Source: an uncultured Anaerolineae bacterium
GTDB taxonomy: Bacteria; Chloroflexota; Anaerolineae; Anaerolineales; Villigracilaceae
Length of the DNA stretch: 40,069 bases
Direction: 5' to 3'
Assembly: GCA_903846015.1 (NCBI GenBank)
Contig: CAIMZS010000639.1
Location: forward strand, 1 to 40,069
Shown here: in pieces, positions 1,599 to 35,300 of the stretch
Numbering within the stretch: position 1 is the first letter of the stretch
Layout of the letters: each line of letters opens with the position of its first letter
Notes under the pieces: generated by a model
Told to the model about the DNA's origin: nothing
Seen by the model: the letters and a program-made list of their open reading frames with translations, nothing else
The model's database searches: none
Made by a program: the position numbers and the translations under genes

Positions 1599-3068
1599 TT
1601 ATGGTCTGGCGTAGACAACATGCAATTCAGCGCTGGCGATGGTGATGTCTTTGATGGCGGTCAACATCACTTCGCGGGTAGCCTGGGCGGCAGGGATAGA
1701 GACCTGCGGCACGGAGAGCGCATATACGCTATAAATGTATTCCTTGTCGCCAGGGCCTTTGGAGCAAGGCGGTGCATAGGCCAGGTCTTTGTTGACGCTA
1801 TTGGTTCCGATTGTGCCAATGCCGCTGACGTTTTTCGCGAGGCTGATGACACCTGTCGGGATGTTATACACAACCCAATACCAGTGAATAGCATTATCCG
1901 GCGCGGCATGGTGCATGATGACCACGAAAGACTTTGTCCCGGCGGGCGCAGCGCTCCACGAAAGCGCCAGGGTGGAGGCTGCTCCATCACAGGTGTATTC
2001 GACGGGCAGTCGCCCATCAGCCGGCAGGTCGGGGCTGGTCAGGGTGAACGTGGATGTGTTGGTCTCCACCGCTGTGCTGCTCATGGACATTTTGACAGTG
2101 TAGACCGCCGTTCGGGCAGTGATGAATAAGGTCAAGCCATCTTTCCCGGCGATAGTGCCCGTTCTAGCAGGGCCGAAGGCCACATTGGTCGGGTTTTCCG
2201 TTGTTGGGATATCGCGCAGGTGTTTTCCTGTGGTATCGAAAACTTGCACCTTGTTCGGCGTGGTCAGGTACAGATTGCCAGCGGCATCCAAATCCATGCC
2301 ATCCGATCCAACCGCAACGAACAGTTTTTTATTGCTCAGGGTTCCTTCCCTATTGATGGCGTAGGCATACGTCTGATTGGCGCCGTAATCTGCCACATAA
2401 AGCGTTTTGCCATCCGCCGTACCGGCAATGCCGTTGGGCTGCTGCAGGTCGTTGATAACGCGCGTCACCTGGCTGTGATCCGGCGTCAAATAGTAGACGT
2501 GCTGTCCATCCTGCACCACCGGGGCCTGGTAGGCCGGATCTGTGAAGTAAATCCCGCCCTGTGAGTCAATCCACAGGTCATTCGGCTCGTTGAAGCGAGT
2601 GCCGTTATAGGTTTCGACCAGAGCTGTTACCTGTCCCTGAGCATTGATCGAAATTAACCGGCCTTTGCCGCCCTCGCAGGCGATCAGGTTGCCGCTTTTA
2701 TCGAACATCAAGCCATTGGGACCGCTCAGCCCCTGGACAAAGACGCTGACGCTTCCATCCGCTGTCCATTTGTAGATTTTCCCGGCGTTGATGTCTGAGA
2801 AGTAGACATTCCCGTTACCATCTGCTGCCGGGCCTTCGGTGAAAAGATAGGTACCGGAAACCGGCTGGATTTCAGCACTGAAAGTGATCGCGTTCACAGT
2901 GGGTTGCTGCTGCGGAGCGGGCTGTTGTGTGGGCTGCGCAGCGGGAACCTGGGCCAGCGTGGCGGGCGGTTCGGCCGGATTCGCCGGGGCGACGATACTT
3001 TTGCAGGCACTGGCGGTTATCGCCAGCAAAACAAAGATTGAAATAAGGATCTGTTTTTGGTTTTTCAT
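1599..3068 (-). CDS. Lipoprotein fusing an SMP-30/gluconolactonase-like propeller to a PEBP (YbhB/YbcL) domain
   Basis: The ATG at 3068 is chosen because AAAGG lies seven bases upstream; a GTG at 3083 is also in frame. A signal peptide ends in a lipobox (ASAC, Cys22), followed by a Pro/Gln/Ala-rich linker to about residue 60. Residues about 65-320 carry the repeating blades of an SMP-30/gluconolactonase propeller (EGPAADGNGNVYFSD, FNEPNDLWIDSQGGIYFTDP, LQQPNGIAGTADGKTLYVAD). Residues about 330-489 match the phosphatidylethanolamine-binding family, with the phrases PVEYTCDGA, SFVVIMHH, HWYWVVYNIP and YAPPCSKGPGDKEYIYSVYAL. Both halves would sit outside the cytoplasmic membrane. A dispersed-repeat core encodes residues near 298-306 (GPARTGTIAG) in the last blade. 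An enzymatic lactonase role is possible, but ligand binding is equally likely. Confidence 0.88.
   Translation of the reverse strand: MKNQKQILISIFVLLAITASACKSIVAPANPAEPPATLAQVPAAQPTQQPAPQQQPTVNAITFSAEIQPVSGTYLFTEGPAADGNGNVYFSDINAGKIYKWTADGSVSVFVQGLSGPNGLMFDKSGNLIACEGGKGRLISINAQGQVTALVETYNGTRFNEPNDLWIDSQGGIYFTDPAYQAPVVQDGQHVYYLTPDHSQVTRVINDLQQPNGIAGTADGKTLYVADYGANQTYAYAINREGTLSNKKLFVAVGSDGMDLDAAGNLYLTTPNKVQVFDTTGKHLRDIPTTENPTNVAFGPARTGTIAGKDGLTLFITARTAVYTVKMSMSSTAVETNTSTFTLTSPDLPADGRLPVEYTCDGAASTLALSWSAAPAGTKSFVVIMHHAAPDNAIHWYWVVYNIPTGVISLAKNVSGIGTIGTNSVNKDLAYAPPCSKGPGDKEYIYSVYALSVPQVSIPAAQATREVMLTAIKDITIASAELHVVYARP
2150..2174 (-). repeat. Family A dispersed repeat core inside the SMP-30/PEBP gene
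   Basis: The sequence reads on the gene's sense strand as GGCCCTGCTAGAACGGGCAC followed by TATC, and is translated GPARTGTIAG. It is the same repeat, in the same frame, as the one at the N-terminus of the NTF2-like gene at 8482. Confidence 0.8.
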
Positions 3069-3093
3069 TGGGTAGCCTTTCACTGTTGTTCTG

Positions 3094-3126
3094 ATCTTAC
3101 AAAAGAGTTGTTCAGAACCTGTTCAG
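3094..3126 (-). promoter_or_regulatory. PhoB-box-like operator/promoter of the SMP-30/PEBP gene
   Basis: The minus strand shows CTGAACA, GGTT, CTGAACA (3126-3109), then nine bases, then TAAGAT (3099-3094). The block CCCAATCACTT that lies upstream of the box in the two sister promoters is missing. It is replaced directly by a dispersed repeat that begins at 3128, so the third half-site is also lost. Confidence 0.5.
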
Positions 3127-3127
3127 A

Positions 3128-3160
3128 CGATAGTGCCGGTTCTAGCACGGCCATGGGCAC
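3128..3160 (-). repeat. Family A dispersed repeat abutting an operator
   Basis: It reads CGATAGTGCCGGTTCTAGCA and continues CGGCCATGGGCAC on the plus strand. It lies one base from the heptamer repeats of the downstream promoter. Confidence 0.8.
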
Positions 3161-3170
3161 AGAGTTCCGT

Positions 3171-5045: not shown

Positions 5046-5076
5046 GGTTTTCTCCATTTAATGAACGACTGTCCAT

Positions 5077-5131
5077 AGAATAGCAAAGTGATGTTCAGAA
5101 ATTGTTTAGAAGTGATTGGGAATCTGTTCGA
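5077..5131 (-). promoter_or_regulatory. PhoB-box-like operator/promoter of the glycosyltransferase gene
   Basis: The minus strand shows CTAAACA, ATTT, CTGAACA (5109-5092), nine bases, then TATTCT (5082-5077). A third half-site TCGAACA (5131-5125) lies 22 bp upstream of the first heptamer. About 45 of 60 bases match the promoter at 1529-1583, including the CCCAATCACTT block between half-sites. Confidence 0.55.
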
Positions 5132-5783: not shown

Positions 5784-5796
5784 TTGGAGGTAGTAA

Positions 5797-6665: not shown

Positions 6666-6737
6666 CGATAGTGCCGGTTCTAGCACGGCCACGGGCACGG
6701 GCAAAGATTTCGCCTCGCGCTGGAACCGGGACTATCG
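6666..6737. repeat. Inverted pair of family A repeats (MITE-like unit)
   Basis: The left arm 6666-6684 (CGATAGTGCCGGTTCTAGC) and right arm 6719-6737 (GCTGGAACCGGGACTATCG) are inverted copies matching at 17 of 19 positions. The 34-base centre carries a GGGCAC hexamer repeat. It fills most of the gap between the DJ-1 and ThDP genes. Confidence 0.75.
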
Positions 6738-8481: not shown

Positions 8482-8895
8482 ATGGACAATAGTACCCCCG
8501 GCCATGCTAGAACCGGCACTATCGACCGTGCTGGAACCGGTACTATCGGAAAAACTTTTTACAACCGCCAGGTAGCTTTCCTTGAAGCCCATGATGTCGA
8601 GGGTCTGATTGCATCGCAATATGCCCCTGATGCGGAACTGGTTGGCTACGATCTGCATGTGCAAGGTACACAGGCCCTGATCAAACACTTTACTGGCTAT
8701 CTAGGACAGTTGGGCAGTCTCAAGTTGATTTCGACCGATAAGTTTATGGAAATCGAAAATGCCATTATGTTCGAAGCCAGCATTCAGGTGGCGGCAGGTG
8801 TGGCGCGTGTTTATGACACCTTTGTGCTGAAGGATGGGAAAGCCATCTACCACTTTACCGGCATGCTCGGTTTTTCGCCCAATCCCGTGCAGTAA
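8482..8895 (+). CDS. NTF2-fold (SnoaL-like) protein with a repeat-encoded N-terminus
   Basis: The small alpha+beta protein begins at ATG 8482, five bases after the ThDP gene; an in-frame GTG at 8467 would overlap that gene and has a GGTGGG upstream, so the start is uncertain. Residues about 7-23 (PGHARTGTID then RAGTGTIG) are the translation of two tandem copies of the dispersed repeat. The domain proper begins at about FYNRQVAFLEAHDVEGLIASQY, a typical NTF2/SnoaL first helix, and continues to GKAIYHFTGMLGF. Either the repeat was inserted into the N-terminus, or it displaced the original start and translation now begins within or before it. It is the first of twelve NTF2-fold domains in a row; the fold covers cyclases, isomerases and binding proteins. 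Confidence 0.72.
   Translation: MDNSTPGHARTGTIDRAGTGTIGKTFYNRQVAFLEAHDVEGLIASQYAPDAELVGYDLHVQGTQALIKHFTGYLGQLGSLKLISTDKFMEIENAIMFEASIQVAAGVARVYDTFVLKDGKAIYHFTGMLGFSPNPVQ
8500..8549 (+). repeat. Tandem pair of family A repeats, translated
   Basis: Two direct copies (8500-8524 and 8525-8549) differ at a few positions (CTAG versus CTGG, GGCAC versus GGTAC). Both are read in the ARTGTI frame. Confidence 0.82.
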
Positions 8896-8932
8896 TCGGG
8901 ACTAATTTAAAAGACATAAGAGGAGTGGCAAG

Positions 8933-9376
8933 ATGAGCAAGATTACAGATCAGCAAATTCAAGATTTTGTCGCCGCCTGGTATCAGGCGCTGGACTTTCA
9001 TATTCCGATCGAGCAGGTTTATCCTTTGTTGGCTCAGGAAGGTCTGGTGATGTCGTTCCCGGATGGCGATATTAAGGATAAGGCCTCGTTCAAGGTTTGG
9101 TACGACCGTGTTACTAACATCTTCTTCGATGAAAACCACTTTGTGAATGAAGTCAAAATTACCCCCCAGGGCAGTGAATTTGTCCTGGATATTATCGTTG
9201 GTTGGCAGGCTTCGTGGTGGATTGCCCCGCAGCCCAAGAGCAAACGAGTTTCGATGGATGCAACCCAGCGTTGGGTTGTTCGTGCCAGCAGCCAGAATGC
9301 ATTTGGATTGGAAATTGTTTCCTACAACGCCACGGTTGAACCTTTCAAATACTCCCCAGGTTTTGCAAGGCTTTAA
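8933..9376 (+). CDS. NTF2-fold (SnoaL-like) small protein
   Basis: The start has GAGGAG upstream. At 147 residues it has the length of a single NTF2-fold domain. An N-terminal amphipathic helix (ITDQQIQDFVAAWYQALDFH) leads into YPLLAQEGLVMSFPDG, which corresponds to the helix-strand junction where SnoaL-like proteins place the ligand pocket. The later strand VLDIIVGWQASWWI is rich in aromatic residues that would line such a pocket. I cannot name the ligand or reaction. It lies 37 bases after the previous NTF2 gene on the same strand. It belongs to a divergent subgroup that lacks the GTHxG motif of the ester-cyclase-like members further on. Confidence 0.72.
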   Translation: MSKITDQQIQDFVAAWYQALDFHIPIEQVYPLLAQEGLVMSFPDGDIKDKASFKVWYDRVTNIFFDENHFVNEVKITPQGSEFVLDIIVGWQASWWIAPQPKSKRVSMDATQRWVVRASSQNAFGLEIVSYNATVEPFKYSPGFARL

Positions 9377-9449
9377 TTTTTGCAAGGCTTTAACCCTTTG
9401 ACCTCATAAGGGTGTTTGTTCAAAAGACATAACTATTTATAAGGCTCTG

Positions 9450-9470
9450 GCACAGCGATTTATCGCCGTG
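9450..9470. repeat. Family B palindrome copy
   Basis: GCACAGCGATTTATCGCCGTG is an imperfect copy of the ACGGCGATTTATCGCCGT palindrome, located 33 bases before the next start. Confidence 0.7.
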
Positions 9471-9502
9471 AAACGAGATTGAACCATTACAAGGAGAAAA
9501 AA

Positions 9503-9925
9503 ATGGATAACACTCAGATCGTTTTTCGTATGTATGAACTGTTCGGCAAGGGTGATATGGCAACCATGAAAAGTGAAGTGATGCATCCCGATGTAAGCTG
9601 GACGATGCCGGGGCATCACCCCATGTCTGGCCGCATGGAAGGCGTGGATTCAGTTTTGGCTTTTCTGGGCGCGCTTTTCAAAGCCGGTATCGTGGTCGAT
9701 CACGTTCACTTTGGCCTCTTGGATGACGGCACCGTGATTGAGAAGCACATGGGACACGGCAGGATCGGGGGCGAACAGTTTGATTTCCCCACCTGCACTT
9801 CCTATGGCATTAAGGATGGCAAGCTTTTTGATGTGCATGTTCACACTGGCGACCAGCACAACGTGGACCGTTATTTTTGGAACGTTTTCAAATTGAAGGG
9901 TATCCCTGCTCGCCTGGCTGACTAA
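9503..9925 (+). CDS. SnoaL-like NTF2-fold protein
   Basis: ATG 9503 is preferred over the in-frame ATG 9479 because AAGGAG lies just before it. The sequence MDNTQIVFRMYELFGKGDMATM followed by HPDVSWTMPGHHPMSG is classic for SnoaL-like proteins (a helix with a small-loop-GD pattern, then the strand and PG motif). MEGVDSVLAFLGAL matches the usual G-xx-v-xxFl helix. FPTCTSYGIKDGKLFDVHVHTGD forms the last strands, with His residues that could act in the pocket. The product is 140 residues, a complete single domain. Such proteins include polyketide cyclases, limonene-epoxide-hydrolase-like and ketosteroid-isomerase-like enzymes; which applies here is not decidable. Confidence 0.82.
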   Translation: MDNTQIVFRMYELFGKGDMATMKSEVMHPDVSWTMPGHHPMSGRMEGVDSVLAFLGALFKAGIVVDHVHFGLLDDGTVIEKHMGHGRIGGEQFDFPTCTSYGIKDGKLFDVHVHTGDQHNVDRYFWNVFKLKGIPARLAD

Positions 9926-9935
9926 GCTGGCGAAT

Positions 9936-10024
9936 GGCCGTGATAGAACCGGCACTTTCGTCTCGTGCAGGAACCGGGACTATCGTGATATGGTACCCGG
10001 TTCTGCACAGGCACAGGCACAGGC
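9936..10024 (+). repeat. Composite dispersed repeat with a hexanucleotide run
   Basis: Two family A copies (9936-9960 and 9961-9985) are followed by an inverted variant at 9986-10005 (GGTACCCGGTTCTGCAC) and a GCACAG hexamer run to 10024. It fills the whole gap between two NTF2 genes and ends at the next ribosome-binding site. Confidence 0.78.
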
Positions 10025-10036
10025 AAAGGAGATAGG

Positions 10037-10489
10037 ATGGCTACAGTTAAAGCAGTTATTACCCCTGAACATGTAAAAGAAGCTTATGCCGCTTTGGCCT
10101 CTGGCGATACACAGAAGGTGAGGCAGTATTGGGCAGATGAAATGGTCTGGCAGGTGCCGGGACATAACCTGCTCTCAGGTTGGTATTTTGGCCTGGACGA
10201 ATTCCTGGGATTTATGGGCACCGTTGGTCAGCTTTCCGGGAACAGCTTTCAGATGGAAAACATCGCCGGGCAGGTGATCGTGACGGGCGAGTATTCGGCA
10301 GACTTGACCCGCAACCGCGGCAATCGCGCAAACTTGCCTGATAAGCAAATGGATATTGAAGTGGTGCATGTTTTGCGCTGGAAAGATGGAAAAGTGATCG
10401 CTGGCAAGGGTGCTATCTTTGGCGATGGCGCTACAGAGTATGACCAGTTTTGGTCGAATTCACCGGCTGTGACCCCGCCGACCCATTGA
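10037..10489 (+). CDS. SnoaL-like NTF2-fold protein, close paralogue of the C-terminal domain at 11450-12757
   Basis: The start has AAAGGAG at 10024-10030. The 150-residue product is a single domain with ITPEHVKEAYAALASGD, EMVWQVPGHNLLSGWY, the FMG helix, and HVLRWKDGKVIAGKGAIFGD as the last strands. About three quarters of the residues, by eye, are identical to residues about 287-435 of the FHA-containing protein encoded 1 kb downstream, including the C-terminal tail TEYDQFWS-SP-VTPP-H. That similarity points to a recent local duplication. The repeat element at 9936-10024 ends immediately before its ribosome site. Reaction and ligand are unknown. Confidence 0.85.
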   Translation: MATVKAVITPEHVKEAYAALASGDTQKVRQYWADEMVWQVPGHNLLSGWYFGLDEFLGFMGTVGQLSGNSFQMENIAGQVIVTGEYSADLTRNRGNRANLPDKQMDIEVVHVLRWKDGKVIAGKGAIFGDGATEYDQFWSNSPAVTPPTH

Positions 10490-10491
10490 TA

Positions 10492-10950
10492 ATGATAATC
10501 CATAACGCGGATTCCTTTAAGTCTATCGGCGGAAACAAGGCTGTACTGGCCCGTCATTTTACGGAAGTGTTGAACCAGGGCCATTTGGATGTCATCGACG
10601 AAATCTACACCAGCGACTACGTCCTGGACGCGCCCGTGCAGTCAGACGGCAGCTCCCAGGCCCGTGGATTGACACACGGCCGCGAACAATTGAAACAAAG
10701 AGTGACCTTGTTCCGCACAGCCTTTCCAGATATCCAGTTTACACAGGATGAGGTTGTCGGTGAAGATGATACCGTCGTGGTGCGCTACACCTACCGCGGC
10801 ACCCACCAGGGCGTTTTTGCCGGGGTGCAACCCAGCGGTCACTCAATCGCTATCCCAGGTATCCTGGTCGCTCACCTGACAAATGGAAAAATTTGGCAGG
10901 CGATCAGCGCCTTTGATAGCGCGGAATTAATGAAACAACTTGGTAATTAA
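10492..10950 (+). CDS. SnoaL-like ester-cyclase-type protein
   Basis: The ATG at 10492 follows the previous TGA by two bases, suggesting translational coupling; an in-frame TTG at 10486 is an alternative and neither has its own ribosome site. The 152-residue protein has the consensus of the PF07366 SnoaL/ester cyclase family: a first helix (VLARHFTEVLNQGHLDVIDEIY), RTAFPDIQFTQDEVVGEDDTVVVRYTYRGTH, then GVFAGVQPSGHSIAIPGI and a final strand LTNGKIWQAISAFD. In SnoaL itself this fold catalyses ring closure by an aldol step in nogalamycin synthesis. No polyketide synthase is present here, so a different substrate is likely. Confidence 0.86.
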   Translation: MIIHNADSFKSIGGNKAVLARHFTEVLNQGHLDVIDEIYTSDYVLDAPVQSDGSSQARGLTHGREQLKQRVTLFRTAFPDIQFTQDEVVGEDDTVVVRYTYRGTHQGVFAGVQPSGHSIAIPGILVAHLTNGKIWQAISAFDSAELMKQLGN

Positions 10951-10966
10951 TCAATCGCCCCCAGAT

Positions 10967-11046
10967 AGCACGGTGATTTATCGCCGCCCCCTGGCGCCTA
11001 TGTAAATTCGCCCTACAAGCCGGACACAGCAGTGCTGTGTCCCTAC
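10967..11046. repeat. Family B palindrome copy plus a perfect 21-base palindrome
   Basis: AGCACGGTGATTTATCGCCG (10967-10986) is a family B copy. GGACACAGCA and TGCTGTGTCC (11022-11042) are perfect 10-base inverted arms around one G. Together they occupy the gap before the tautomerase gene. The hairpin is not followed by a T-run, so it is unlikely to be a classical terminator. Confidence 0.7.
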
Positions 11047-11062
11047 CTAATTAGGAGAAAAA

Positions 11063-11410
11063 ATGCCAATTATCACAATTCAGGTTATTGAGGGCGTGGT
11101 GCTGACCAGCCCTGAGCAGAAGCGCGACCTGCTCAAAAAAATGACCGATACCTTTATCAGCGTGGTCGGCGATGTTGCCCGCCCATATACCTATTGCATC
11201 ATCCAGGAAACCCCGCCGATGGAATGGTCGATAGCAGGCGCACCCCTGCCCGACCTGCCCTTCTTGTATGGCCCTGATTATGCCGAAATGCATAAAAAGT
11301 CCAACGAGATCATGCGCAATTTCATCGAACACCAAACTAATAAAGGCGTAGCTCCCAGCGATCACAGTCACAGTTGGGATCACGCGCAAAATGTATGGGA
11401 AGGCAAGTAA
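11063..11410 (+). CDS. 4-oxalocrotonate tautomerase-family protein
   Basis: AGGAG precedes the start. After removal of Met the N-terminus is Pro (PIITIQVIEGVVLTSPEQKR), the catalytic base that defines the 4-oxalocrotonate tautomerase/MIF superfamily. The beta-alpha-beta unit (strand PIITIQVIEG, helix SPEQKRDLLKKMTDTFISVVG, strand YTYCIIQETPPMEWSIAG) is complete. The C-terminal half (LPDLPFLYGPDYAEMHKKSNEIMRN) is an extension beyond the usual 62-residue monomer, giving 115 residues. It would catalyse keto-enol tautomerisation or a related proton transfer. Its place amid SnoaL-like genes and a ThDP decarboxylase supports a small-molecule pathway using enolisable keto compounds, which is inference. 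Confidence 0.85.
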   Translation: MPIITIQVIEGVVLTSPEQKRDLLKKMTDTFISVVGDVARPYTYCIIQETPPMEWSIAGAPLPDLPFLYGPDYAEMHKKSNEIMRNFIEHQTNKGVAPSDHSHSWDHAQNVWEGK

Positions 11411-11449
11411 TGGTCTCGGTACCTGTTTGCCATCCTGAGGAGATATAAA

Positions 11450-12757
11450 GTGGCCGATACATTCCAAATCATTATTAAGAAGGGTCCTACCCCGGGACGT
11501 GTGTTTGAATTGACCCAGAGCGAAGTCAGCATGGGCCGCGAAGCGTCCAATATGCTTCATATCGAGGATCGGGCCTTATCACGTTCACACGCCCGTTTTA
11601 TTCGGAGCGCTTCCGGTTATTCCATCCAGGATCTGGGCTCCACCAATGGAACGTTTGTCAATGGAAACGTTACCAGCGGTGTGTATGTCTTGCAGAATGG
11701 CGACATTATCACGATGAGCGACGCCGTTGAGCTGGAATTCCGCAAAATTTCGACCGGCAGTGATCCCAATGCTACTTTTGTGATGCCGGTTCAGAAGAAA
11801 AACGATGCAACCGAGGTACTGCCTTCGCGCGCCGCTCTTCAGGCAGAGCTTTCCAGGGTCAAAACCGCAGGCCATGCCGAGGAACACCGGGTACTTTTCA
11901 GCCGCTGGTTTGAAGAGCTGTGGAACAAAAAGAATTATGAGATCACCAGGGAATTGGTAGCCTCCGAATTTACTGCGCATGGCGCTGGCGGGCAGGATAT
12001 AAAGCAAGGTCCCGATGGTGTTGCCGGCATGGTGAAGATCTGGCACGAGGCATTCCCGGATGGTCACATGACCATGGATGACATCGTTACAGAAGGGGAA
12101 ATGTCTTCCATCCGCATGACTTTCCGCGGTACGCATACCGGTGAGTTTTACGGCATCCCCGCCAGCAACAAATCTGTGGAAGTCACCTCCATCGGTATCG
12201 ACCGCGTCGTTGCTGGAAAGATCACCGAGGGCTGGGGCGAATTGAATATGCTTGGCATGATGCAGCAGATGGGCGCCAACCCAGGCCCGGATCAGGGTCC
12301 GAAGGAATTTGATATTGAAACATCGATCACTCCGGAGCACGTTGGCGAAGCTTATGCTGCCCTGAGCTCTGGCGATATGAATCAGATCAAGCAGTTCTGG
12401 GCCGAAGAAATGGTCTGGCAAGTGCCAGGTCACAATCAGCTTTCCGGCTGGTACTTAAATCGGGATGAATTCCTAGCCTTTATGGGTCAGGTCGGGGAGA
12501 TGTCGGATCACAGCTTCCACATGGATATGATCGCCGGGCGTGTCCTGGTAACCGGTGATTATTCGGTCGACTTGACCCGCAACCGCGGTCATAAAAAGGG
12601 CGAGCCGGATAAGACCATGGATATTGAAGTGGCGCATGTTTTACGTTGGCGTGATGGCAAGGTAATTGCTGGTAAGGGTGCCATTTTTGGCGACGGCGCA
12701 ACGGAATATGACCAGTTCTGGTCTCGTTCGCCGGTTGTTACTCCACCCAGCCATTAA
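11450..12757 (+). CDS. FHA domain fused to two SnoaL-like NTF2-fold domains
   Basis: Translation starts at GTG 11450, with GAGGAG seven bases upstream. Residues 5-100 are a complete FHA domain, with GR (29-30), SRSHAR (44-49) and the STNGTFVNG signature (64-72). Its fold binds phosphothreonine peptides. Residues about 140-270 are an ester-cyclase-type SnoaL domain (FRGTHTGEFYGIPASNKSVEVT). Residues about 287-435 are a second NTF2 domain nearly identical to the free-standing protein at 10037. I know of FHA fused to many domains but do not recall FHA joined to tandem SnoaL domains. The fusion suggests that phosphorylation, perhaps by a Ser/Thr kinase encoded elsewhere, localises or controls one enzyme of the array. 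No kinase is in the window. Confidence 0.9.
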   Translation: MADTFQIIIKKGPTPGRVFELTQSEVSMGREASNMLHIEDRALSRSHARFIRSASGYSIQDLGSTNGTFVNGNVTSGVYVLQNGDIITMSDAVELEFRKISTGSDPNATFVMPVQKKNDATEVLPSRAALQAELSRVKTAGHAEEHRVLFSRWFEELWNKKNYEITRELVASEFTAHGAGGQDIKQGPDGVAGMVKIWHEAFPDGHMTMDDIVTEGEMSSIRMTFRGTHTGEFYGIPASNKSVEVTSIGIDRVVAGKITEGWGELNMLGMMQQMGANPGPDQGPKEFDIETSITPEHVGEAYAALSSGDMNQIKQFWAEEMVWQVPGHNQLSGWYLNRDEFLAFMGQVGEMSDHSFHMDMIAGRVLVTGDYSVDLTRNRGHKKGEPDKTMDIEVAHVLRWRDGKVIAGKGAIFGDGATEYDQFWSRSPVVTPPSH

Positions 12758-12768
12758 GGAGAATTCGA

Positions 12769-13182
12769 ATGTCTATCGAACAAAATAAATTAATCATGCG
12801 CCGCATGATCGAAGAAGTCTGGAACCAGGGAAATATGGCGACTGCCGAAGAGTTGTTCGCCCCAGATCACACCAGTCCCAGCGCGCCGCAGTTACCTCCT
12901 GGCTCGGATGGCGTCAAGATGCTTGTCCAAATGTTCCGCGCAGCCATGCCCGATTATCAAATGAGCATTGATTTACTGGTTGCGGATGAAAACCAGGTGG
13001 TTGGACGCTTTACCCAAAGCGGCACCCACAGTGGTGGTGACTTGATGGGCATGAAGCCATCAGGTCGCAAGGCTACCTGGACCGAAATTGGCGTTCTCAG
13101 GATTGTGGACGGCAAGATCGCCGAGAGCTGGTACGAAGTTGACATGTTGAGCATGATGCAGCAATTAAACGGCTCCAAGTAA
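12769..13182 (+). CDS. SnoaL-like ester-cyclase-type protein
   Basis: AAGGAG precedes the ATG, 11 bases after the FHA gene, so the two are surely co-transcribed. The 137-residue protein is a compact family member: IMRRMIEEVWNQGNMATAEELFAPDH, FRAAMPDYQMSIDLLVADENQVVGRFTQSGTH, MGMKPSGRKATWTEIGVLRIVDGKIAESWYEVD and the C-terminal SMMQQL helix. The same SMMQQL/GMMQQM tail is found in the domains at 11450, 13308 and 14398, so these domains form one paralogous subgroup. The stop lies one base before a dispersed repeat. Confidence 0.86.
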   Translation: MSIEQNKLIMRRMIEEVWNQGNMATAEELFAPDHTSPSAPQLPPGSDGVKMLVQMFRAAMPDYQMSIDLLVADENQVVGRFTQSGTHSGGDLMGMKPSGRKATWTEIGVLRIVDGKIAESWYEVDMLSMMQQLNGSK

Positions 13183-13183
13183 C

Positions 13184-13280
13184 TGGCCGTGTCTGAACCG
13201 GCCCTGGCCCTGCTAGAATGGATACTATCGCAGATTAGTGCAAGTGCAAGTGTCAATGCTCGTGCAGAACCGGGTACCAT
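13184..13280 (+). repeat. Composite dispersed repeat (families A and C)
   Basis: It starts one base after a stop codon with TGGCCGTGTCTGAACCGG, continues with a family A core, then CGCAGATTAG, a GCAAGT hexamer run, and a GCAGAACCGGGTACCATT variant. It fills the gap between two SnoaL genes. Confidence 0.8.
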
Positions 13281-13307
13281 TATCAATCTTCAATTTTTGG
13301 AGCGTGA

Positions 13308-14345
13308 ATGAGCCCAGCACCCAAAAGAATTAACTATGTTGCCGAAATGATCTGGAATGGCACGGCAAAGCCGGGTATCACCTATACCGGCACTGGCCGG
13401 CCGCTGACCGTCAACGAAATGAAGGATGCCATGGTGCGCCTTTATGATGAGTCAAATAACGCCAATTTTAATGTCTTTGACGAGATGCTTTCCCCGGATT
13501 TTGTCAGTTACGGTGGGGCGGGTTTCCAGGATCTGGTTGGCGCCCAGGCGTTTCGGGATCTGTACACCCAATTTCTCACCAGCCTGCCCGACCTGCACTT
13601 CCGGGTTGATCAGGTGGTTGCCGAGGGCAACATGTGTGGCGTTCGTGGCCGGTTGAGCGGTACGCATAAGGGTAATTTCATGGGGTTTGCCCCTCCGACC
13701 GGAAGGTTTATCTCCTGGACGGGGACGGCGATCTTTCGCTTCGATCAAAACGGTTTCATGGATGCTCGTTGGCAGGAGTGGGATGGCTTGAGTGTCATGC
13801 AGCAAATGGGTGTGATCCCAGCCCCGGCATTACCGCAAGGTACCAACTTTGCCCCACAGCCCGAGCCAATTCCACCGGCCCTGCTAGAACGGGCACTATC
13901 GCATGCAGTCGGTTATTCATCGCCGGTTCATCACAAACGGGCCATGCGCCGCCTTATCGAAGAAGTTTTTAACGGCGGCAACCTCTCGATCGCTAACGAT
14001 ATCTATCACCCAGAAGCGACTTACCCTTCTCAACCTGATATTCCAGTCGGGAGCGAAGGCATCCGAACAATTTTGAACATGTACCAACGCGCTATGCCCG
14101 ATTTCCATGTTGATGTGAAAAGCATGATTACTGATGGTGATATGGTGCTGACATGGTTGGCGCAAAGCGGCACTCACAAGGGTGAACTCATGGGCGTGCA
14201 GCCTTCGGGTAAGAAGGTTAACTGGGGCCAGATTATTATCGCCCGCTTTGAAGGTGGAAAAATTGTTGAAAGCTGGAGTAATGAAGACATCCTGGGGCTG
14301 ATGCAGCAACTTGGCGTGGGCGGAGATGCTTCATCAGGTGCTTAA
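13308..14345 (+). CDS. Two tandem SnoaL-like domains joined by a repeat-encoded linker
   Basis: The start has GGAG upstream. Residues about 30-170 form one SnoaL-like domain (MKDAMVRLYDESNNANFNVFDEML, LSGTHKGNFMGFAPPTG, DGLSVMQQMG). Residues about 205-338 form a second (MRRLIEEVFNGGNLSIANDIY, AQSGTHKGELMGVQPSGKKV, DILGLMQQLG) that closely resembles the free-standing protein at 12769. The linker between them contains a family A repeat core read in a frame that gives PALLERALS. The intergenic spacer just upstream of this gene carries the same repeat. This makes it likely that two adjacent genes were fused through a repeat lying between them, or that the repeat inserted in the linker afterwards. 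Function beyond the fold is unknown. Confidence 0.88.
   Translation: MSPAPKRINYVAEMIWNGTAKPGITYTGTGRPLTVNEMKDAMVRLYDESNNANFNVFDEMLSPDFVSYGGAGFQDLVGAQAFRDLYTQFLTSLPDLHFRVDQVVAEGNMCGVRGRLSGTHKGNFMGFAPPTGRFISWTGTAIFRFDQNGFMDARWQEWDGLSVMQQMGVIPAPALPQGTNFAPQPEPIPPALLERALSHAVGYSSPVHHKRAMRRLIEEVFNGGNLSIANDIYHPEATYPSQPDIPVGSEGIRTILNMYQRAMPDFHVDVKSMITDGDMVLTWLAQSGTHKGELMGVQPSGKKVNWGQIIIARFEGGKIVESWSNEDILGLMQQLGVGGDASSGA
13875..13902 (+). repeat. Family A repeat inside the two-domain SnoaL gene
   Basis: The core GGCCCTGCTAGAACGGGCAC (13878-13897) is translated in the fourth open frame (ALLERALS), different from the frames used at 2150, 8500 and 25666. Confidence 0.82.
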
Positions 14346-14352
14346 TTTTAAT

Positions 14353-14377
14353 GTCTGATCTCCCAAAGAGGTCAGAC
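14353..14377 (+). other. Intergenic hairpin between SnoaL genes
   Basis: GTCTGATCTC pairs with GAGGTCAGAC around the loop CCAAA, a 10-bp stem with one wobble. It has no T-run and sits 20 bases before the next start. It resembles the CTGATCTTACAAAAGAG segments at 1526 and 3091. Confidence 0.55.
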
Positions 14378-14397
14378 CAACAAAGGAATAAACTATT

Positions 14398-16821: not shown

Positions 16822-16926
16822 AGGGCGTGTCTGAACCGGCCCTGCTAGAACGGGCACTATCGCAGTTTTACGCAGATTTCGATGATTACGCAGATTAGAG
16901 CAAGAACAAGAGCAAGGGCAAGAGCC
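16822..16926 (+). repeat. Composite dispersed repeat (A then C then hexamer run)
   Basis: It runs GGGCGTGTCTGAACCGG, then a family A core, then CGCAGATTTCGATGATTACG and an AGAGCA/AGAACA/AGGGCA hexamer run up to the next ribosome site. It is one of the clearest full-length units. Confidence 0.82.
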
Positions 16927-17567: not shown

Positions 17568-17676
17568 ACCGGCCCGTGTCTGAACCGCAGATTTACGCAG
17601 ATTAGAGCAAGTGCAAGTGTCTGAAGCGGCCCTGGCTCTGCTAGAACGGGCACTATCGCAGATTAGAGCAAGAGCC
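17554..17676 (+). repeat. Composite dispersed repeat supplying a stop codon
   Basis: Two nested A/C units (GGGCGTGTCTGAACCGG, CGCAGATTTACGCAGATTAG, GCAAGT run, second family A core, CGCAGATTAG, AGAGCA run). The TGA within its first 14 bases ends the DJ-1 gene. Confidence 0.82.
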
Positions 17677-23341: not shown

Positions 23342-23392
23342 ACCGGCCCTGCTAGAACAGGCACTATCGCAGATTAGAGCAAGAACAAGAAC
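23330..23392 (+). repeat. Composite dispersed repeat supplying the glgX stop codon
   Basis: It reads GGGCTGTCTGAACCGG, a family A core with one change (AACAGGCAC), CGCAGATTAG and an AGAGCA/AGAACA run. The TGA at 23339-23341 ends glgX within the element. Confidence 0.8.
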
Positions 23393-24216: not shown

Positions 24217-24251
24217 CGGGGCCGTGGCCGTGCTAGAACCGGCACTATCGC
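24217..24251 (+). repeat. Family A dispersed repeat, near-consensus copy
   Basis: CGGGGCCGTGGCC then GTGCTAGAACCGGCACTATC, starting one base after the kinase gene's TAG. It is the best match to the core consensus and lies just ahead of the ribosome site of the next gene. Confidence 0.85.
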
Positions 24252-25622: not shown

Positions 25623-27689
25623 ATGTCGAAAGTTAAGCCAGCTCTCAAGAATGGAAACCATTCCAGCGATAGTGCCCGTTCTAGTACGGCTACGGCGTCT
25701 TTGAGTTTTAGTAGCTCTGTTTTCGGACAACTGCCCAACTCGGAGGTAATGGAATGGCTGGTTACCAATGGGATTGGCGGGTATGCCTCCGGCACCGTTG
25801 CCAACCTTTTAACGCGCCGCTATCACGGCTTATTGATTGCTGCCATCAAAATACCGCTCGGACGCACTTTACTCGCTTCCAAGCTGGATGAAACCATCGA
25901 ATATGAGGGCCAGGTAAAGCGTATTTTTACCAATCGCTGGGGGAACATCTTGGTTGAACCACTTGGATACCGTCACATCGAGCATTTCCACCTCGAAGGC
26001 GCTGTTCCAGTTTGGACCTATTCAATCGGTGCAGCGCGCCTTGAAAAGCGCATCTGGATGCAGGTCGGCGAAAACACCACTTATATTTATTACACCCTGC
26101 GCCAGGCCTCGACTTCGTTGTCATTATCGGCGAGACCGTTGGTTAATTACCGGGATTTTGATAAGGAAACACATGCCAATGGCTGGCAGATGCGTGTTAA
26201 AAGGGTTGAACACGGCTTAACCGTCCAGGCTTTTGAAGGCGCGGTGCCCTATTATGTATTAAGCGACCGTGCTGTGGCAAACCAGGAAAACAACTGGTAT
26301 CGGAATTTTTCCCTTAGTCTCGAGCAAAATAATAATTACGTCATGATGGAAGATCACCTCAATATCGGAGAATTCCGCGCCAGTCTGGCACCGGATGAAA
26401 CCGTGACTTTTGTTTTTAGCACCGAAGCCAACCCAAACCTGGATGGGGCCTCGGCTTTGGCTGAGAGGCACGCCTACGAAGCCGGGCTGATTGCCCTGGC
26501 GCCGGACCTGCCAGCCAAGCTTGTCCTGGCGGCAGACCAGTTTATTGTCAAACGCGCGGAGCCAGGTCTGCCGGAAGGATATTCCATCATCGCGGGTTAC
26601 CCTGGCTTGAGAGATTGGGCGCGCGATACCCTCATCAGCCTGCCTGGATTGACGCTGGCAACCGGGCGGCTTGCCCAGGCCAGGAGCCTGCTGCTGACTT
26701 TTTCACATTACTTCGATAAGGGCTTACTGCCCAGCTGCCTGCCTGAGCCAGGCGAACTTCCGGAATACAAGACCGCCGATGTGACCTTGTGGTTTTTTGA
26801 AGCGCTGCGGGCCTATTTCCAGGAAACAGGTGACAGTCTCCTTTTATCGGAGTTGTTCCCCATCCTGAAGGAAATTGTGAAATGGCATATACGCGGAACC
26901 CGTCATGATATCCATGCCGATCCGCTCGACGGGCTTTTGTATGCCGGAGAGCCGGGTTTGCCGTTGACCTGGATGGATTCCCGCTCGGGTGATTGGGTGG
27001 TGACACCTCGTATCGGCAAGCCGGTGGAGATCAATGCACTGTGGTACAACGCCTTATGCAGCATGGTTGAGTTTGCGCACAACCTGGGCGAAAAGGCTAA
27101 ACTGTACGAAAAGCTTGCCAAGGCGGTGAAGGGCAGTTTTTCTCGCTATTGGAATGATGAGCAGGGATTTTGTTACGATGTGCTGGATGGCCCGTTGGGG
27201 GCTGTTGCCACCTTGCGCCCCAACCAACTGTTGGCAGTCTCGCTGCATTACAGCCCGCTCAGCCGGAAGCGGCAAAAGGCGGTCGTCGATATATGCGCAA
27301 AAAAACTGTTGACGCCCGTGGGGCTGCGCAGCATGGCGCAGCGCGAACCTGGTTACATTGGTCATGCTGGCGGGAGTGTCCAACAGCAAGATCGGGCCTA
27401 TCACCAGGGCAGTGTTTGGGGCTGGCTGATCGGGCCGTTTGTCAGCGCGCATTACCGGGTTTACAAGAATTCCAAGAGCGCCCGCGCTTTCATGCAACCT
27501 TTCCTGGAGCATTTAACCTTGCATGGAATCGGAAGTGTGAGCGAGCTTTTTGACGGCGACTCGCCTCACAGCCCGCACGGCAGCATTGCCCAGGCTTGGA
27601 GCGTGGCTGAGCTGCTGCGTGCCTGGAAGGAAACCGGCCCCGCGCCAGCCAGCGAGAAAATCAAAAATGCCAATTTGCCGGGGGATTGA
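25623..27689 (+). CDS. GH133 amylo-alpha-1,6-glucosidase (glycogen debranching enzyme)
   Basis: The 688-residue protein begins at ATG 25623 without a strong ribosome site. The family normally starts close to its FG...EWLVTNGIGGYASGT motif, which here begins at about residue 33. The extra N-terminal residues include SDSARSSTATAS, translated from a dispersed repeat. The N-terminal domain has VANLLTRRYHGLLIAA. The (alpha/alpha)6 barrel carries PGLRDWARDTLISLPGL, AYHQGSVWGWLIGPF and SELFDGDSPHSPHGSIAQAWSVAELLRAW, the usual active-site segments of bacterial GDE. It removes the alpha-1,6-linked glucose left after transferase or phosphorylase action. Together with glgX it gives the run two debranching enzymes from unrelated families. 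Confidence 0.92.
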   Translation: MSKVKPALKNGNHSSDSARSSTATASLSFSSSVFGQLPNSEVMEWLVTNGIGGYASGTVANLLTRRYHGLLIAAIKIPLGRTLLASKLDETIEYEGQVKRIFTNRWGNILVEPLGYRHIEHFHLEGAVPVWTYSIGAARLEKRIWMQVGENTTYIYYTLRQASTSLSLSARPLVNYRDFDKETHANGWQMRVKRVEHGLTVQAFEGAVPYYVLSDRAVANQENNWYRNFSLSLEQNNNYVMMEDHLNIGEFRASLAPDETVTFVFSTEANPNLDGASALAERHAYEAGLIALAPDLPAKLVLAADQFIVKRAEPGLPEGYSIIAGYPGLRDWARDTLISLPGLTLATGRLAQARSLLLTFSHYFDKGLLPSCLPEPGELPEYKTADVTLWFFEALRAYFQETGDSLLLSELFPILKEIVKWHIRGTRHDIHADPLDGLLYAGEPGLPLTWMDSRSGDWVVTPRIGKPVEINALWYNALCSMVEFAHNLGEKAKLYEKLAKAVKGSFSRYWNDEQGFCYDVLDGPLGAVATLRPNQLLAVSLHYSPLSRKRQKAVVDICAKKLLTPVGLRSMAQREPGYIGHAGGSVQQQDRAYHQGSVWGWLIGPFVSAHYRVYKNSKSARAFMQPFLEHLTLHGIGSVSELFDGDSPHSPHGSIAQAWSVAELLRAWKETGPAPASEKIKNANLPGD
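25666..25696 (-). repeat. Family A repeat inside the GH133 gene
   Basis: GCGATAGTGCCCGTTCTAGT followed by ACGGCTACGGC lies in antisense orientation to the core and is translated SDSARSSTATA. The same reading occurs in the MFS-HEAT-cNMP protein (SDSAGSSTVTA and SDNAGSSTATA). Confidence 0.82.
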
Positions 27690-27730: not shown

Positions 27731-27772
27731 GAGAAAATTAGCACGGCGATTTATCGCCGTGCTAATTTTCTC
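27731..27772. repeat. Perfect 42-base palindrome (full-length family B element)
   Basis: GAGAAAATTAGCACGGCGAT and its exact complement ATCGCCGTGCTAATTTTCTC are separated by TT. This is the longest and only perfect copy of the family B palindrome. Its 3' edge touches the AAGGA ribosome site (27773-27777) of the metallophosphoesterase gene. In RNA it would form a 20-bp hairpin. Confidence 0.9.
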
Positions 27773-28736: not shown

Positions 28737-28742
28737 ATCTTT

Positions 28743-31077: not shown

Positions 31078-31362
31078 TTAACCAACTTCGAGAAAGACTG
31101 TCACTTCGTCGCCTACATCCAGATCTTCCGCTTTTCGGATACTCATTTTAAGGGGAACAATGTAGCGGCCATCTTTGGCAAACAGGGCCGTTTTCCATTG
31201 GCTGCTGCCAATTCGGACATGGGCCGGGATCATGCCCCAGCCGTAGCTTACCAATTCGGATATGACCTTCAGGTCGCTGCTCTGCTCCGCTGGAACGGTG
31301 ACGAAGTAAAACGGGGCGGGCCCATGCCAGAACCAAATTTTGTCCTTGAATTCGATATCCAT
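31078..31362 (-). CDS. DUF1905-domain protein
   Basis: The 94-residue protein matches the small DUF1905 family: DIEFKDKIWFWHGPAPFYFVTVP at the N-terminus, GWGMIPAHVRIGSSQWKTALF and KDGRYIVPLKMSIRKAEDLDVGDEVTV at the C-terminus. The domain is a small beta barrel that is usually cytoplasmic, and its molecular function is not established. A GAGGG element lies about 12 bases before the ATG, so initiation may be modest. It is flanked on both sides by composite repeats and is not clearly in an operon with its neighbours. Confidence 0.85.
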   Translation of the reverse strand: MDIEFKDKIWFWHGPAPFYFVTVPAEQSSDLKVISELVSYGWGMIPAHVRIGSSQWKTALFAKDGRYIVPLKMSIRKAEDLDVGDEVTVFLEVG

Positions 31363-31392
31363 GGGTACAGTATATCCCTCTTCTTGTGCTGC

Positions 31393-31500
31393 CTCGTGTC
31401 TGAACCGCTGATATCGATGATTACGCAGATTAGAGCAAGAGCAAGGTCAAAGACTGTCGTCGTGCTGGAACGGGTACACGGCGATTTATTGCCGTGCTAA
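31393..31500 (+). repeat. Composite dispersed repeat (C, A and B joined)
   Basis: It runs CTCGTGTCTGAACCGC, the CGATGATTACGCAGATTAG block, a GCAAGAGCAAGG run, the AAAGACTGTC module and a truncated family A core (GTGCTGGAACGGGTAC). It then goes without a break into a family B palindrome (31477-31496). The TAG stop of the MinD-like gene (31499-31497) lies in its last bases. Confidence 0.8.
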
Positions 31501-32249: not shown

Positions 32250-32262
32250 AATATTTTCCTGA

Positions 32263-32308
32263 GCACGGTGATTTATCGCCGTGGCCGTACTAGAACCTGC
32301 ACTGTCGC
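32263..32308 (+). repeat. Family B palindrome joined to a family A copy
   Basis: GCACGGTGATTTATCGCCGT (32263-32282) runs straight into GGCCGTACTAGAACCTGCAC and TGTCGC. It fills most of the 63-base gap between the two genes. Confidence 0.78.
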
Positions 32309-32312
32309 TATC

Positions 32313-35300
32313 TCATCCCAGGTCTTCAAGCTGGTCATACACCTGCCGTAGTTTGCGCGGCATGGATCGGGTAAGGTGGGCGATCTGATCATTTGCCTCA
32401 CGCATACGCTGGCTCAGAATTTTGATCAATTCCAGTGAGAGATCCGGGTATTGACGGATCAGTGCGATGAGATGCTCCACCCTCAGAGTCAACAGGGTGC
32501 TATCTTCCAGGCTGAGGGCGCTGGAGTTGCGTGGGCTGTCGTCGAATAGACTCATTTCTCCAAAAGAAGAACGCGCTTCGATCGTCGAAAGCCGTATCAC
32601 AGAATCCTTGCGATCACCTTCGCGTTCGATAGCCACACGTCCTTTCACAACCATAAAAACTTCGCCGCCCGGTTCGCCTTCCTGGAATATCCGGGTGTTT
32701 GCAGGCACGGATTGCTCTTCACAGATGCTTGCCAGCACTTTAAGTTGTTCAATGCTCATGTTTTGAAAAAAGGTCACCTGTTTGAGGAAGATGATCCGTT
32801 CGATGATCGAGAGATTGGTTGTCATGTGTTCACCTTTCAATGCAATTTCTATGCTGGTCATGCGCGCTGCAGTCCGCGCTGCTGCGCGTACTTCCCGGGC
32901 CGTGGCCGTACTAGAACCGGCATTATCGCTGGAATCCTTGTCCGCTGATAGGATCAGTTCCTGGGGCCGTGGCCGTGCTAGAAACGGCACTATCGGAGCG
33001 GGCTGCTGCTTGGTGGCAGCGTTGATTTCGCCCAGTGAATAAATGGCGCCTGCTCTCAGCCATTCGTTTTGTGGGTCTGCCAGCAGCCGGCGCAAGGCAA
33101 GCTCTGCACCAAGAGGTTTGATGTCCCAGGTTTCAGCCCCGATCTCTGCCAGGTCGGCAGCGGAAGGGTGGTGTTCCAAGACTGGATGGATCAATTTTCG
33201 CAGCGATGAATCGATCACAGCATCCAATGCTTCGCTTGCGTTGGCCCGCATGGCGCTGATGCTGCTGGCGAAAGATTGGCTGATCCTATTGACGGACTTC
33301 GCGCCATAGCGGGCAGCAAGCAGTTCGAAGACAACCTGCAGATTATCCTGGTTGAGTTCAGCGAGTAGGCTGCGCAGAAAGGACAGCCCGGGCTGGGCCG
33401 GAAGATCGCGCAGGTCATTAAGCAAGGAGTGACGCTCGTAAATAGCTTTCATTTCTGTCATGATCTGCTCATCCACCAACACGCCATACTTGCGCACGTC
33501 GATGCGGCACAGCGCGGCTTTCAGAACGGCGCCTTGATCCGGGTTTTGCGTCAGCGCAAGTTCGAGACCCGGCGCAGCGCGGGTTCCGAACTTAACCAGG
33601 ATTTCGGCGGCGTTATTGCGCACCGCCCGGGCCGTATCAAACAAAGCGAGTAGGATGAGATCGATGGAGCGCTTGGTGTGGACTTGTTCGAGCATCACCA
33701 GCGTTGCAAGGCGCACCCGTTCGAGTGGGTCATGCAGTAAAGCCTCGCCCGCTGCAAGGATGGCGGCTTCGATTGATGGTTCAAGGACACGGTGATAAAT
33801 CGCCGTGCTAGCCAGGGTGGCGCGCAGGCGCACCTCGCCATCGCCATCTTGTAAAAAGGTCAAGAGAGTTGGTAGAAAGCGCGGCAGGCCGCTCTTGCCC
33901 AGCGCATCTATGGCGCTGGCGCGGGCTTGCGCATCGGAGTTCTTGAGCAGCTCCTGCAGTGCTGCCTCAGCTTGGCTGATGGCCGTGACCGTGCTAGAAC
34001 CGGCACTATCGGATTGGTTCGACTGGAACAACGCGACCAACGCCTCGGCGCGCAGTTTGGGGCTGGCATCGCTGAGCAGCCCGGCGGCCAGGTCCAGGAA
34101 GGAACTGTTTGATTCCGGGTTTTGCTGCAGCCCAAGAAAAGCTGCCAGCCGCACTTGCGGATCTGGATCGCCCAGATATTTCTCATAAAATTGCTGCAAA
34201 GATTTTTCAGTCCCATCGGCATCGGCTAGGACGCCGATGATGCCAGCGCGCAGCGCCGCATTGCTCTCCCTGGTTTTTGTTTCCAGGATAGGAAGCGCCG
34301 CTTTGATATCTGCCTCCACCGTGACCCTGGCGAGCAGCAGAGTGATGGCGTCATCATGGCTCTCAGCCAATATCTTCAATAGGGTATGTATTGTGGCAGG
34401 GTCTGTCGCCCGCATCAGTTCGCCATCCGTGGGAGCTGATGGCAGCAGGGAGACATAATCTTCTTGTTCCAACAGGGTGATCATCGCCTGGGAATATTTC
34501 CGGCGTATTATCAGGCTGCAAAGCAGAAATGCCAGCGCCGGCAGCCCGAGCAGGATAGGTAGAAACAGGTTTGCTGGCAGCAGCTTGCCAAATTCAAGCA
34601 CGGCGCTGCTGACAAGCAGCGCTACCGGCAAAATTAGCCCATCCACAAACGAACGGGAGCGTCCCTTGACGTGGGCAGGTACAGCGTTGTACAACAGGTT
34701 GTTACTGGTTTCCTGGGTGGAATAGCGGAATGTGTTGCGGTCAAAATGCGCGAAGGCAGCGCTGGCGAGTGAAAGCGGCGCAAAGATCACGCCGCTTGAG
34801 ATCAATAATGTGCCCAGTGGAAAAAAAACGTTGGCATTGCCTACGCCGATCCGGGCGACAATGCGGCTGAACATGAACAACTGCACCGGCAGCATGACCA
34901 GGCTTGTCAAGCCATTCAATGTGCCGATAAAGTTGGTGATCTCGGCGCGCGAGCCAAAGCTTTCCTTGATAATCAGGCCGCCCTGGTAATTCAGGATGGC
35001 AAAAATGATGACCATTAAAAAGGTGGAGAGCGAAACCCAGCGTAAATAACTGGATGATGAGACATATTTAAACCCTTCTTTGATATTGCCCAGGGTTGTG
35101 GTGTGTGCGGTTTTTGCGTCGGTCTGAACCGGCCTTGGCCCTGCTAGAACGGGCACTGTCTGAACCGCAGATTTACGCAGATTTAGACGATTTCGCAGAT
35201 TAGAGCAAGTGCGAGTGTCGCTAGAACCGGTACTATCACTATTCATCAGCCAGGAAAGCGAGGCTATTGCCAGCAGGGTTACCACCCACAGCAGGATGAT

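Follow-up and report, generated by a model that had tools for sequence, protein, structure and literature searches.

A dispersed 24-bp repeat that lies in frame within many predicted protein genes of an uncultured Anaerolineae bacterium

The stretch analyzed here (the window) comprises 40,069 nucleotides of contig CAIMZS010000639.1 from the uncultured Anaerolineae bacterium GCA_903846015.1, a metagenome-assembled genome (MAG) of 6.5 Mb in 662 contigs with 5.85% contamination. It contains numerous copies of a short repeat, which is located between genes as well as, in frame, inside predicted protein genes. Among four related repeat families in this genome, only the two with a unit length divisible by three (24 bp) are common in genes. 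This contrast between 24 bp on the one hand and 25 and 23 bp on the other is the strongest argument in the case and was missed by a first-pass annotation of the sequence. The 20-base core of the repeat, GTGCTAGAACCGGCACTATC, was counted with up to three mismatches both in the window and in the genome. It was detected 22 times in the window (12 copies outside genes) and not once in 100 shuffled sequences, which rules out a chance origin. Genome-wide, 514 copies were found, 261 and 253 on the two strands, compared to a single match of the reversed pattern. The dispersed repeat described in the first-pass annotation is therefore real. Copies are present throughout the range of 2150 to 35238 assigned to it there, but they continue to 37929 (Table 1). 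The core has a TAG codon in one forward and one reverse frame, while the remaining four frames are open, as had been noted.

Three subfamilies and one relative were distinguished. Subfamily A has the 24-bp unit GCCGTGCTAGAACCGGCACTATCG (sequence form GGCCGTGCTAGAACCGGCACTATCG), subfamily C the 24-bp unit GCCCTGCTAGAACGGGCACTATCG (sequence form GGCCCTGCTAGAACGGGCACTATCG), and subfamily B a 25-bp unit with the sequence CCTCGTGCTGGAACCGGGACTATCG. The relative D, CAGAACCGGGTACCATGCCCGTG, has a 23-bp period in the subject genome and in G008, a MAG of the same genus. Tandem copies are spaced by 24 bp (18 cases) or 18 bp (three cases) in A, by 24 bp in C (nine cases), and by 25 bp in B (16 cases). 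All four families share a loop of approximately TGC(T)(A/G)GAAC between short stems, which are GCCG/CGGC in A, GCCC/GGGC in C, CTCG/CGGG in B, and CCCG/CGGG in D. In 241 distinct 25-mers, two of the four stem pairs were paired more often than after shuffling (83% vs. a mean of 62% and 86% vs. 48%). Simultaneous changes on both sides of the stem within a subfamily were rare, with nine in A and none in B or C. Since covariation is seen between but rarely within subfamilies, the stem appears to have been kept at the origin of each subfamily and to decay in individual copies. The DNA hairpins predicted for A, C, and D have a loop of 8 to 9 nt and energies of −3.2 to −3.6 kcal/mol on both strands. 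Arrays of 24-bp tandem units occupy contigs C56, C124, C158, C211, and C631 of G000 within the first 160 bases, as do arrays of 23-bp units in contigs C192 and C231 of G008. Because of this position, the true array lengths were probably lost in the assembly.

The occupancy of genes was determined in 81 stretches (1.318 Mb of the 6.5 Mb), which were picked around listed exact A copies and B copies, so that the totals do not represent genome-wide frequencies. Genes were called with a purpose-built hexamer-based caller instead of a standard program; according to this caller, 83% of the sampled DNA is coding. Altogether, 72 of 273 A and C copies were located inside 47 predicted genes (A 54/177, C 18/96), compared to 10 of 156 B copies. 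With 123 A, 78 C, and 146 B copies outside genes, the repeat is predominantly intergenic. The difference persisted for close copies with at most three mismatches, of which 47/146 (A), 18/92 (C), and 4/92 (B) were found in genes (Fisher's test, A vs. B p = 8 ∙ 10−8; C vs. B p = 0.002). Three of these four B copies (two proteins) lie within the last 20 residues. For D, 5 of 93 copies identified by a 16-base pattern and none of 21 identified by the full 23-mer were inside genes; D units are often attached to A copies, and their counts are therefore not independent. All four families are less frequent in genes than expected for random placement, which indicates that most insertions into genes have been removed.

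All four open frames are used inside genes, as the first-pass annotation had claimed, with 16, 14, 17, and 16 of 63 copies in the first 686 kb. In the larger sample, the frames were used by 17, 16, 13, and 8 copies of A, while the usage in C was uneven (10, 3, 3, and 2). The A copies in genes had on average 1.46 mismatches and the intergenic ones 1.70, and exact copies accounted for 20/54 and 50/123, respectively. Synonymous changes made up 27 of the 98 changes in in-gene copies; the expectation without constraint is a share of 0.29 to 0.33. As synonymous changes are not in excess and in-gene copies are as near to the consensus as intergenic ones, the encoded peptides appear to be tolerated passengers.

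Of the 47 genes hosting A or C units, 39 match Pfam families. The hosts, named after their domains, include NuoG, cytochrome b, a LacZ-type beta-galactosidase, the E2 component of a 2-oxoacid dehydrogenase, biotin carboxylase, NAD kinase, a penicillin-binding protein, and an asparaginase-like hydrolase. In the window, the peptide ARTGTI was recovered in the genes at 1599 (−) and 8482 (+) and LLERALS in the gene at 13308 (+), all as annotated before. The gene at 32313 (−) does contain peptides of the SDSARSSTATA type, but in three stretches instead of two (DNAGSSTATA, SDSAGSSTVTA, and SDSTGSSDTRT), and the second of its two IVPFLARPRP-type stretches reads TVPVLAGPRP. SDSARSSTATA is also encoded in the open reading frame (ORF) at 25623 (+), although in an N-terminal position upstream of the called start at 25749, which makes its translation the least certain. 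Judging from the sequence, the peptides are presumably translated in the cell. The one of the three G008 copies that lies in frame is part of a predicted helicase-like gene (RGSAGSSTATFG; name read from the sequence). A separate observation concerns L041:11067-12941, where a thiolase ORF continues through an A + D composite into about 226 residues of an upstream segment; the repeat may have fused two ORFs here.

Same-genus orthologues without the repeat peptides were available for five host proteins, namely the products of 32313, 13308, and 8482, a 1735-amino acid (aa) membrane protein, and cytochrome b. The first-pass annotation had proposed that repeat-free orthologues with the same residues at the same positions would speak against insertion; no such orthologue was found for these five proteins, and the claim stands. 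The 32313 product (1166 aa) was aligned with its orthologues in G001 (54%) and G010 (47% over the C-terminal part). Both orthologues show clean gaps, of 8 and 10 residues, opposite two of its inserts; opposite the other two, the peptide is missing as well, but in a region of variable length. The G010 orthologue of 13308 lacks the repeat peptide as well. The gene at 8482 starts with MDNSTPGHARTGTIDRAGTGTIGKTFYNRQ; after removal of exactly 48 bp, it reads MDNSTPGKTFYNRQ and is colinear with, and of the same length as, MTENTTGKDFYNRQ in G001 and MADVSPGRAFYDRQ in G010, which share the same upstream gene. In cytochrome b relatives with 60% to 74% identity, AVLEPALS is absent. DSAGSSTA units of the 1735-aa protein were found in none of nine aligned relatives (G006 was excluded owing to partial coverage); as the linkers of this protein vary in length, this alignment demonstrates the absence of the peptide rather than an exact empty site. 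For 1599 and 25623, no match was obtained in the searched stretches of the relatives. Four further hosts were not used as evidence: only distant relatives were found for a Cpn60-like protein and E2, no PDB match was obtained for the NAD kinase, and the alignment of the asparaginase varied too much around the repeat to reveal an insertion.

The preference for linkers and loops stated in the first-pass annotation is reflected in the position of the repeats relative to Pfam domains, since 12 of 48 sites were located inside a domain compared to 26 expected. For this count, the domain intervals were entered by hand, and 40 of 48 hosts were considered (8 without Pfam match excluded, 25623 added). 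Units of an array or composite were treated as one site, one site with six mismatches (L034, residue 639) was removed, and the first interval of the Cpn60-like host was taken from its separate alignment with distant relatives. The depletion is possibly exaggerated because a Pfam domain call may stop early at an insert. Comparison with the sequences of solved structures revealed that two units in the beta-galactosidase coincide with a 17-residue gap in the chain of 6sd0 and that the repeat in cytochrome b coincides with a 7-residue gap of cytochrome b6 (6rqf). The structure model of cytochrome b was poor (mean pLDDT 57.9), with the insert in a low-scoring stretch (160–173) between two helices. 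The model of the 1166-aa protein was also poor (mean pLDDT 48.9); in its better part (about 477–850), the insert near residues 599–606 is placed in a loop between the helices 585–600 and 607–623.

Empty sites were searched for by joining the flanks of lone copies at assumed unit lengths of 14 to 35 and matching the joined sequence to the sampled genome (after the lone-copy and 4-mismatch filters, 249 of 429 copies were retained). For C, 11 of 70 lone copies had an empty site at 24 bp, with one each at 18, 20, and 26 bp. Ten of the eleven were clean, and all ten had CG at the join; one of the host repeats was observed both empty and filled. For B, 14 of 82 lone copies had an empty site at 25 bp and one at 24 bp. 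CG directly precedes 62 of 80 C copies at a genome frequency of 6.6%, and C copies have CG on both sides, which is either a 2-bp target-site duplication or part of the unit. Directly left of A, TG was found in 89 of 126 copies, often as the end of a preceding GCCGTG hexamer. Longer modular repeats, GTGTCTGAACCG, CGCAGATTTACG, and GCAGATTAGAGCAAG with 6-bp iterations, serve as landing sites for the units (in the window at 35161–35215, 37800–37890, and 16863–16920). They are mostly located outside genes, with 2/87, 2/65, and 4/89 copies inside genes, respectively.

A search of 60 relatives with up to two mismatches yielded three copies in G008, one of them exact, two in G034, and one in G058, with two mismatches in each copy of G034 and G058. 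Among named genomes, one exact copy was detected in the MAG CAILYI01 "uncultured Anaerolineae," which is probably identical to the exact copy of G008. Allowing one mismatch, a 16-base core was found 214 times in the subject genome, whereas 16 of 395 other genomes of the class (G008 was not part of this set of 396) had one match each and none had more. The reversed control of this core matched many more genomes of the class, so that these single matches are at chance level. With so few matches among relatives and class members, the burst is essentially confined to the subject species; no comparable burst was detected elsewhere in the order or class among the 60 relatives and 395 class genomes sampled. 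Viral contigs contained no exact match, and carriage by viruses was rejected. Neither the repeat nor in-frame repeats in Anaerolineae were described before among the literature matches listed.

The explanation that we consider probable is that of a very small dispersing element, inserted as a whole unit and filtered by selection for the reading frame. It draws on the observed copy number, unit length, empty sites, CG preference of C, insert-less orthologues, and scarcity of the sister families in genes. A single 24-bp unit (A or C) with a weak 4-bp hairpin would insert as one piece, sometimes as tandem units or together with the 6-bp GCCGTG; for C, this would mostly take place directly after CG, so that CG flanks both ends. 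The element would have multiplied recently within one Anaerolineae species by an active process rather than by ordinary recombination, either through an enzyme acting in trans on the hairpin or through copying from tandem arrays. Insertions into genes might survive as peptides of 8 to 10 residues where the protein tolerates them, and selection would remove the others. Such survival would be possible because 24, 48, and 30 can be divided by three and stop codons are missing from four of the six frames. The 25- and 23-bp sisters shift the frame, which would be the reason for their near confinement to intergenic DNA. Purifying selection would thus act after insertion on frame, stops, and position, and the peptides would be passengers without a selected sequence.

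Several observations weigh against this explanation. The hairpins are weak overall, that of B being close to 0 kcal/mol as DNA, two of the four stem pairs were not paired above shuffling, and covariation is restricted to comparisons between subfamilies. In G001, the gap at the 13308 repeat comprises 11 residues; for cytochrome b, the net difference to the orthologues is 7 residues instead of 8. B and D are frequent in intergenic composites, and their scarcity in genes may partly reflect the place of insertion. The clean empty sites of C sit in few kinds of other dispersed repeats and are not all independent. Of the 14 empty sites of B, five go back to a B unit lying within a unit of A or C, and a further two match another B-like stretch, leaving seven clean sites, three of them with CG at the join. 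Subfamily A, although the commonest in genes, had only one clean empty site among 97 copies, located after CG at a length of 24 bp; a further join at 24 bp and four at 18 bp do no more than recreate another unit. B copies are preceded by CG in just 35 of 97 cases and A copies in 22 of 126, and for A together with GCCGTG we infer a 30-bp form. Finally, neither a Y1_Tnp search of the genome nor a search for units near the Y1 genes revealed a mobilizer.

The main alternative, which we regard as unlikely, dispenses with dedicated mobility; the units would have spread out of tandem arrays through slippage, template switching, and gene conversion, in a satellite-like growth and transposition. In line with it are perfect tandem arrays close to the ends of contigs, the occurrence of 24-, 25-, and 18-bp units in arrays, mosaics with other repeats, and the location of the clean C empty sites inside other repeats. 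From slippage, however, one would expect neither isolated copies in numerous unrelated genes nor empty sites that follow CG and match one unit precisely. Rather improbable is mobilization by a RAYT, a Y1 tyrosine transposase, which would insert hairpins similar to repetitive extragenic palindromes (REPs) in single-stranded form on the 3' side of a short target. The size of the units, their hairpin, and their scattered, mosaic distribution would fit a REP system, as would insertion behind a dinucleotide with no long duplication and the two Y1_Tnp matches in the subject genome. The unit, however, lacks a GTAG or CGTC tag, and no A to D unit (up to five mismatches) is present in the regions of 14.9 and 15 kb that contain the Y1 genes. 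Moreover, Y1 matches are equally common in relatives without the repeat (zero to three each; 9 of 11 genomes of the genus), and RAYT mobilization is thus possible but unsupported. That the peptides are functional, as selected linkers or tags added to proteins, is very unlikely and was rejected: some frames are rich in Ser/Gly/Thr and the sites are mostly between domains, but the four frames yield unrelated peptides, the synonymous share is not raised, and gene occupancy is far below the coding share. An artefact, with spurious ORFs or misassembly making intergenic repeats appear coding, might be suspected from the fragmented and contaminated MAG, the arrays near contig ends, and the non-standard gene caller, but is the least likely of all given the Pfam matches of the hosts, several repeats inside a domain, orthologues aligning on both sides of the insert, and sisters of 25 and 23 bp without the gene-occupancy pattern.

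The first-pass annotation had compared the repeat to Rickettsia palindromic elements (RPEs), which is sound as an analogy but not as an assignment. According to excerpts of PMC10969869 and PMC3767692, RPEs are dispersed, sit in frame within numerous unrelated protein genes, and are read as an extra peptide; the A and C copies here are likewise found in frame in many unrelated genes and are presumably translated. They are described as about 100 to 150 bp long, compared to the 24-bp unit, and encode a conserved peptide, whereas four frames are used in the present repeat, tandem units are common, and the host belongs to the Chloroflexota. REPs, as portrayed in parts of PMC3733652, are hairpin repeats of 20 to 40 bp with high copy numbers, mostly intergenic but in some cases inside known protein genes; TnpA-REP cuts at CT or CA with a GTAG guide (excerpts of PMC8266576), and REPINs are treated in PMC3116915 (excerpts). 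The repeat resembles them in hairpin formation (A, C, and D; weak in B), high copy number, and predominantly intergenic location. In contrast to REPs, the units of A and C contain ATAG and CTAG instead of GTAG/CGTC when read on both strands, no RAYT gene is flanked by the repeat as in the GTAG class, and head-to-tail arrays replace inverted dimers. Prokaryotic satellites form perfect, species-specific head-to-tail arrays, with a scattered family in Chloroflexus aurantiacus (excerpts of PMC6749651); tandem arrays occur here too, but single dispersed units with one-unit empty sites are common. PARCELs are translated palindromic repeat DNA encoding a 25-residue amphipathic motif (excerpts of PMC2996958); the present repeat is presumably translated as well, but no peptide is selected. 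Terminal inverted repeats as in miniature inverted-repeat transposable elements are absent, since GCC at one end of the unit is not an inverted copy of TATCG at the other.

The element thus works like RPEs and intragenic REPs, yet lacks defining features of both. In-frame repeat insertion as such is already established by these two, the latter having been described by 2013 (excerpts of PMC3733652). What is added here is a minimal one-unit element using all four frames, with sisters of 23, 24, and 25 bp as a control within the same genome. These sisters share the loop and hairpin plan and differ by one base in length, and their occupancy of genes tracks length modulo three; the passages on REPs available from PMC3733652 contain no such comparison of sister families. 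The system amounts to a natural experiment on the filtering of mobile DNA by selection in coding sequences. It also supplies dozens of sites in ordinary enzymes at which insertions are tolerated naturally and, with its one-unit insertion of 24 bp, poses a concrete mechanistic puzzle. Only tentatively, and with less than even confidence, we suggest a new class of minimal mobile element, in which hairpin units of 23 to 25 bp would be inserted singly by an enzyme, next to CG in at least one subfamily, and only the 24-bp families would have opened coding DNA as a habitat.

Table 1. Repeat units in the 40,069-nt window and their surroundings
Unit	Position	Strand	Location
24-bp unit C	2150–2173	−	gene 1599–3083 (−), near end of SGL-like region, before PBP domain; ARTGTI
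24-bp unit A	3128–3151	−	intergenic
24-bp unit A	6666–6689	−	intergenic, adjoins B-type unit 6713–6737
25-bp unit B	6713–6737	+	intergenic
Two tandem 24-bp units	8501–8548	+	after CG, in gene 8482–8895
24-bp unit A	9937–9960	+	intergenic, followed by B-type unit 9961–9985
24-bp unit C	13878–13901	+	after CG, gene 13308–14345, linker between two SnoaL-like domains (ALLERALS)
24-bp unit C	16839–16862	+	intergenic
24-bp unit C	17635–17658	+	intergenic
24-bp unit C	23346–23369	+	intergenic
24-bp unit A	24227–24250	+	intergenic
24-bp unit	25667–25690	−	N-terminus of glycogen-debranching-enzyme ORF 25623–27689 (start uncertain)
24-bp unit A	32284–32307	+	intergenic, just 3' of gene 32313–35813 (−)
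Unit A	32905–32928	+	gene 32313–35813 (−); DNAGSSTATA; clean 10-residue gap in G001 and G010
Unit A	32972–32995	+	gene 32313–35813 (−); IVPFLARPRP; peptide absent in G001 and G010; length-variable region, no clean gap
Unit A	33988–34011	+	gene 32313–35813 (−), HEAT region; clean 8-residue gap in G001 and G010
Unit C	35138–35161	+	gene 32313–35813 (−); begins composite insert in central loop of MFS-like part; loop length species-variable
Divergent unit A	35215–35238	+	gene 32313–35813 (−); ends composite insert begun at 35138
24-bp unit C	37842–37865	+	intergenic, flanks GATTACG and CAGATTAGAG; empty version at 28 places in sampled sequence
A/B hybrid unit	37907–37930	+	intergenic

The window region 8482–15282 (L200, L202) contains a cluster of SnoaL-like small proteins, which are partly duplicates of each other and common to G001 and G010. 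A second dispersed family, the palindrome CACGGCGATTTATCGCCGTG, is located at 27742–27765, 31477–31500, 32264–32287, and 33788–33811. It may be another repeat tolerated in genes (7 of 32 copies in predicted genes in 1.32 Mb). Neither this palindrome nor the motif GCGAGATTGCCACGC fits well into the overall picture; of the latter, 9 of 28 copies are in genes, of which the eight listed all have two mismatches and are perhaps due to chance. A 41-nt repeat (TGTTCTGATCTTACAAAAGAG..TTCAGAA) was found at three intergenic places of the window (1522–1562, 3087–3127, and 5070–5110) and possibly represents a shared promoter or operator.

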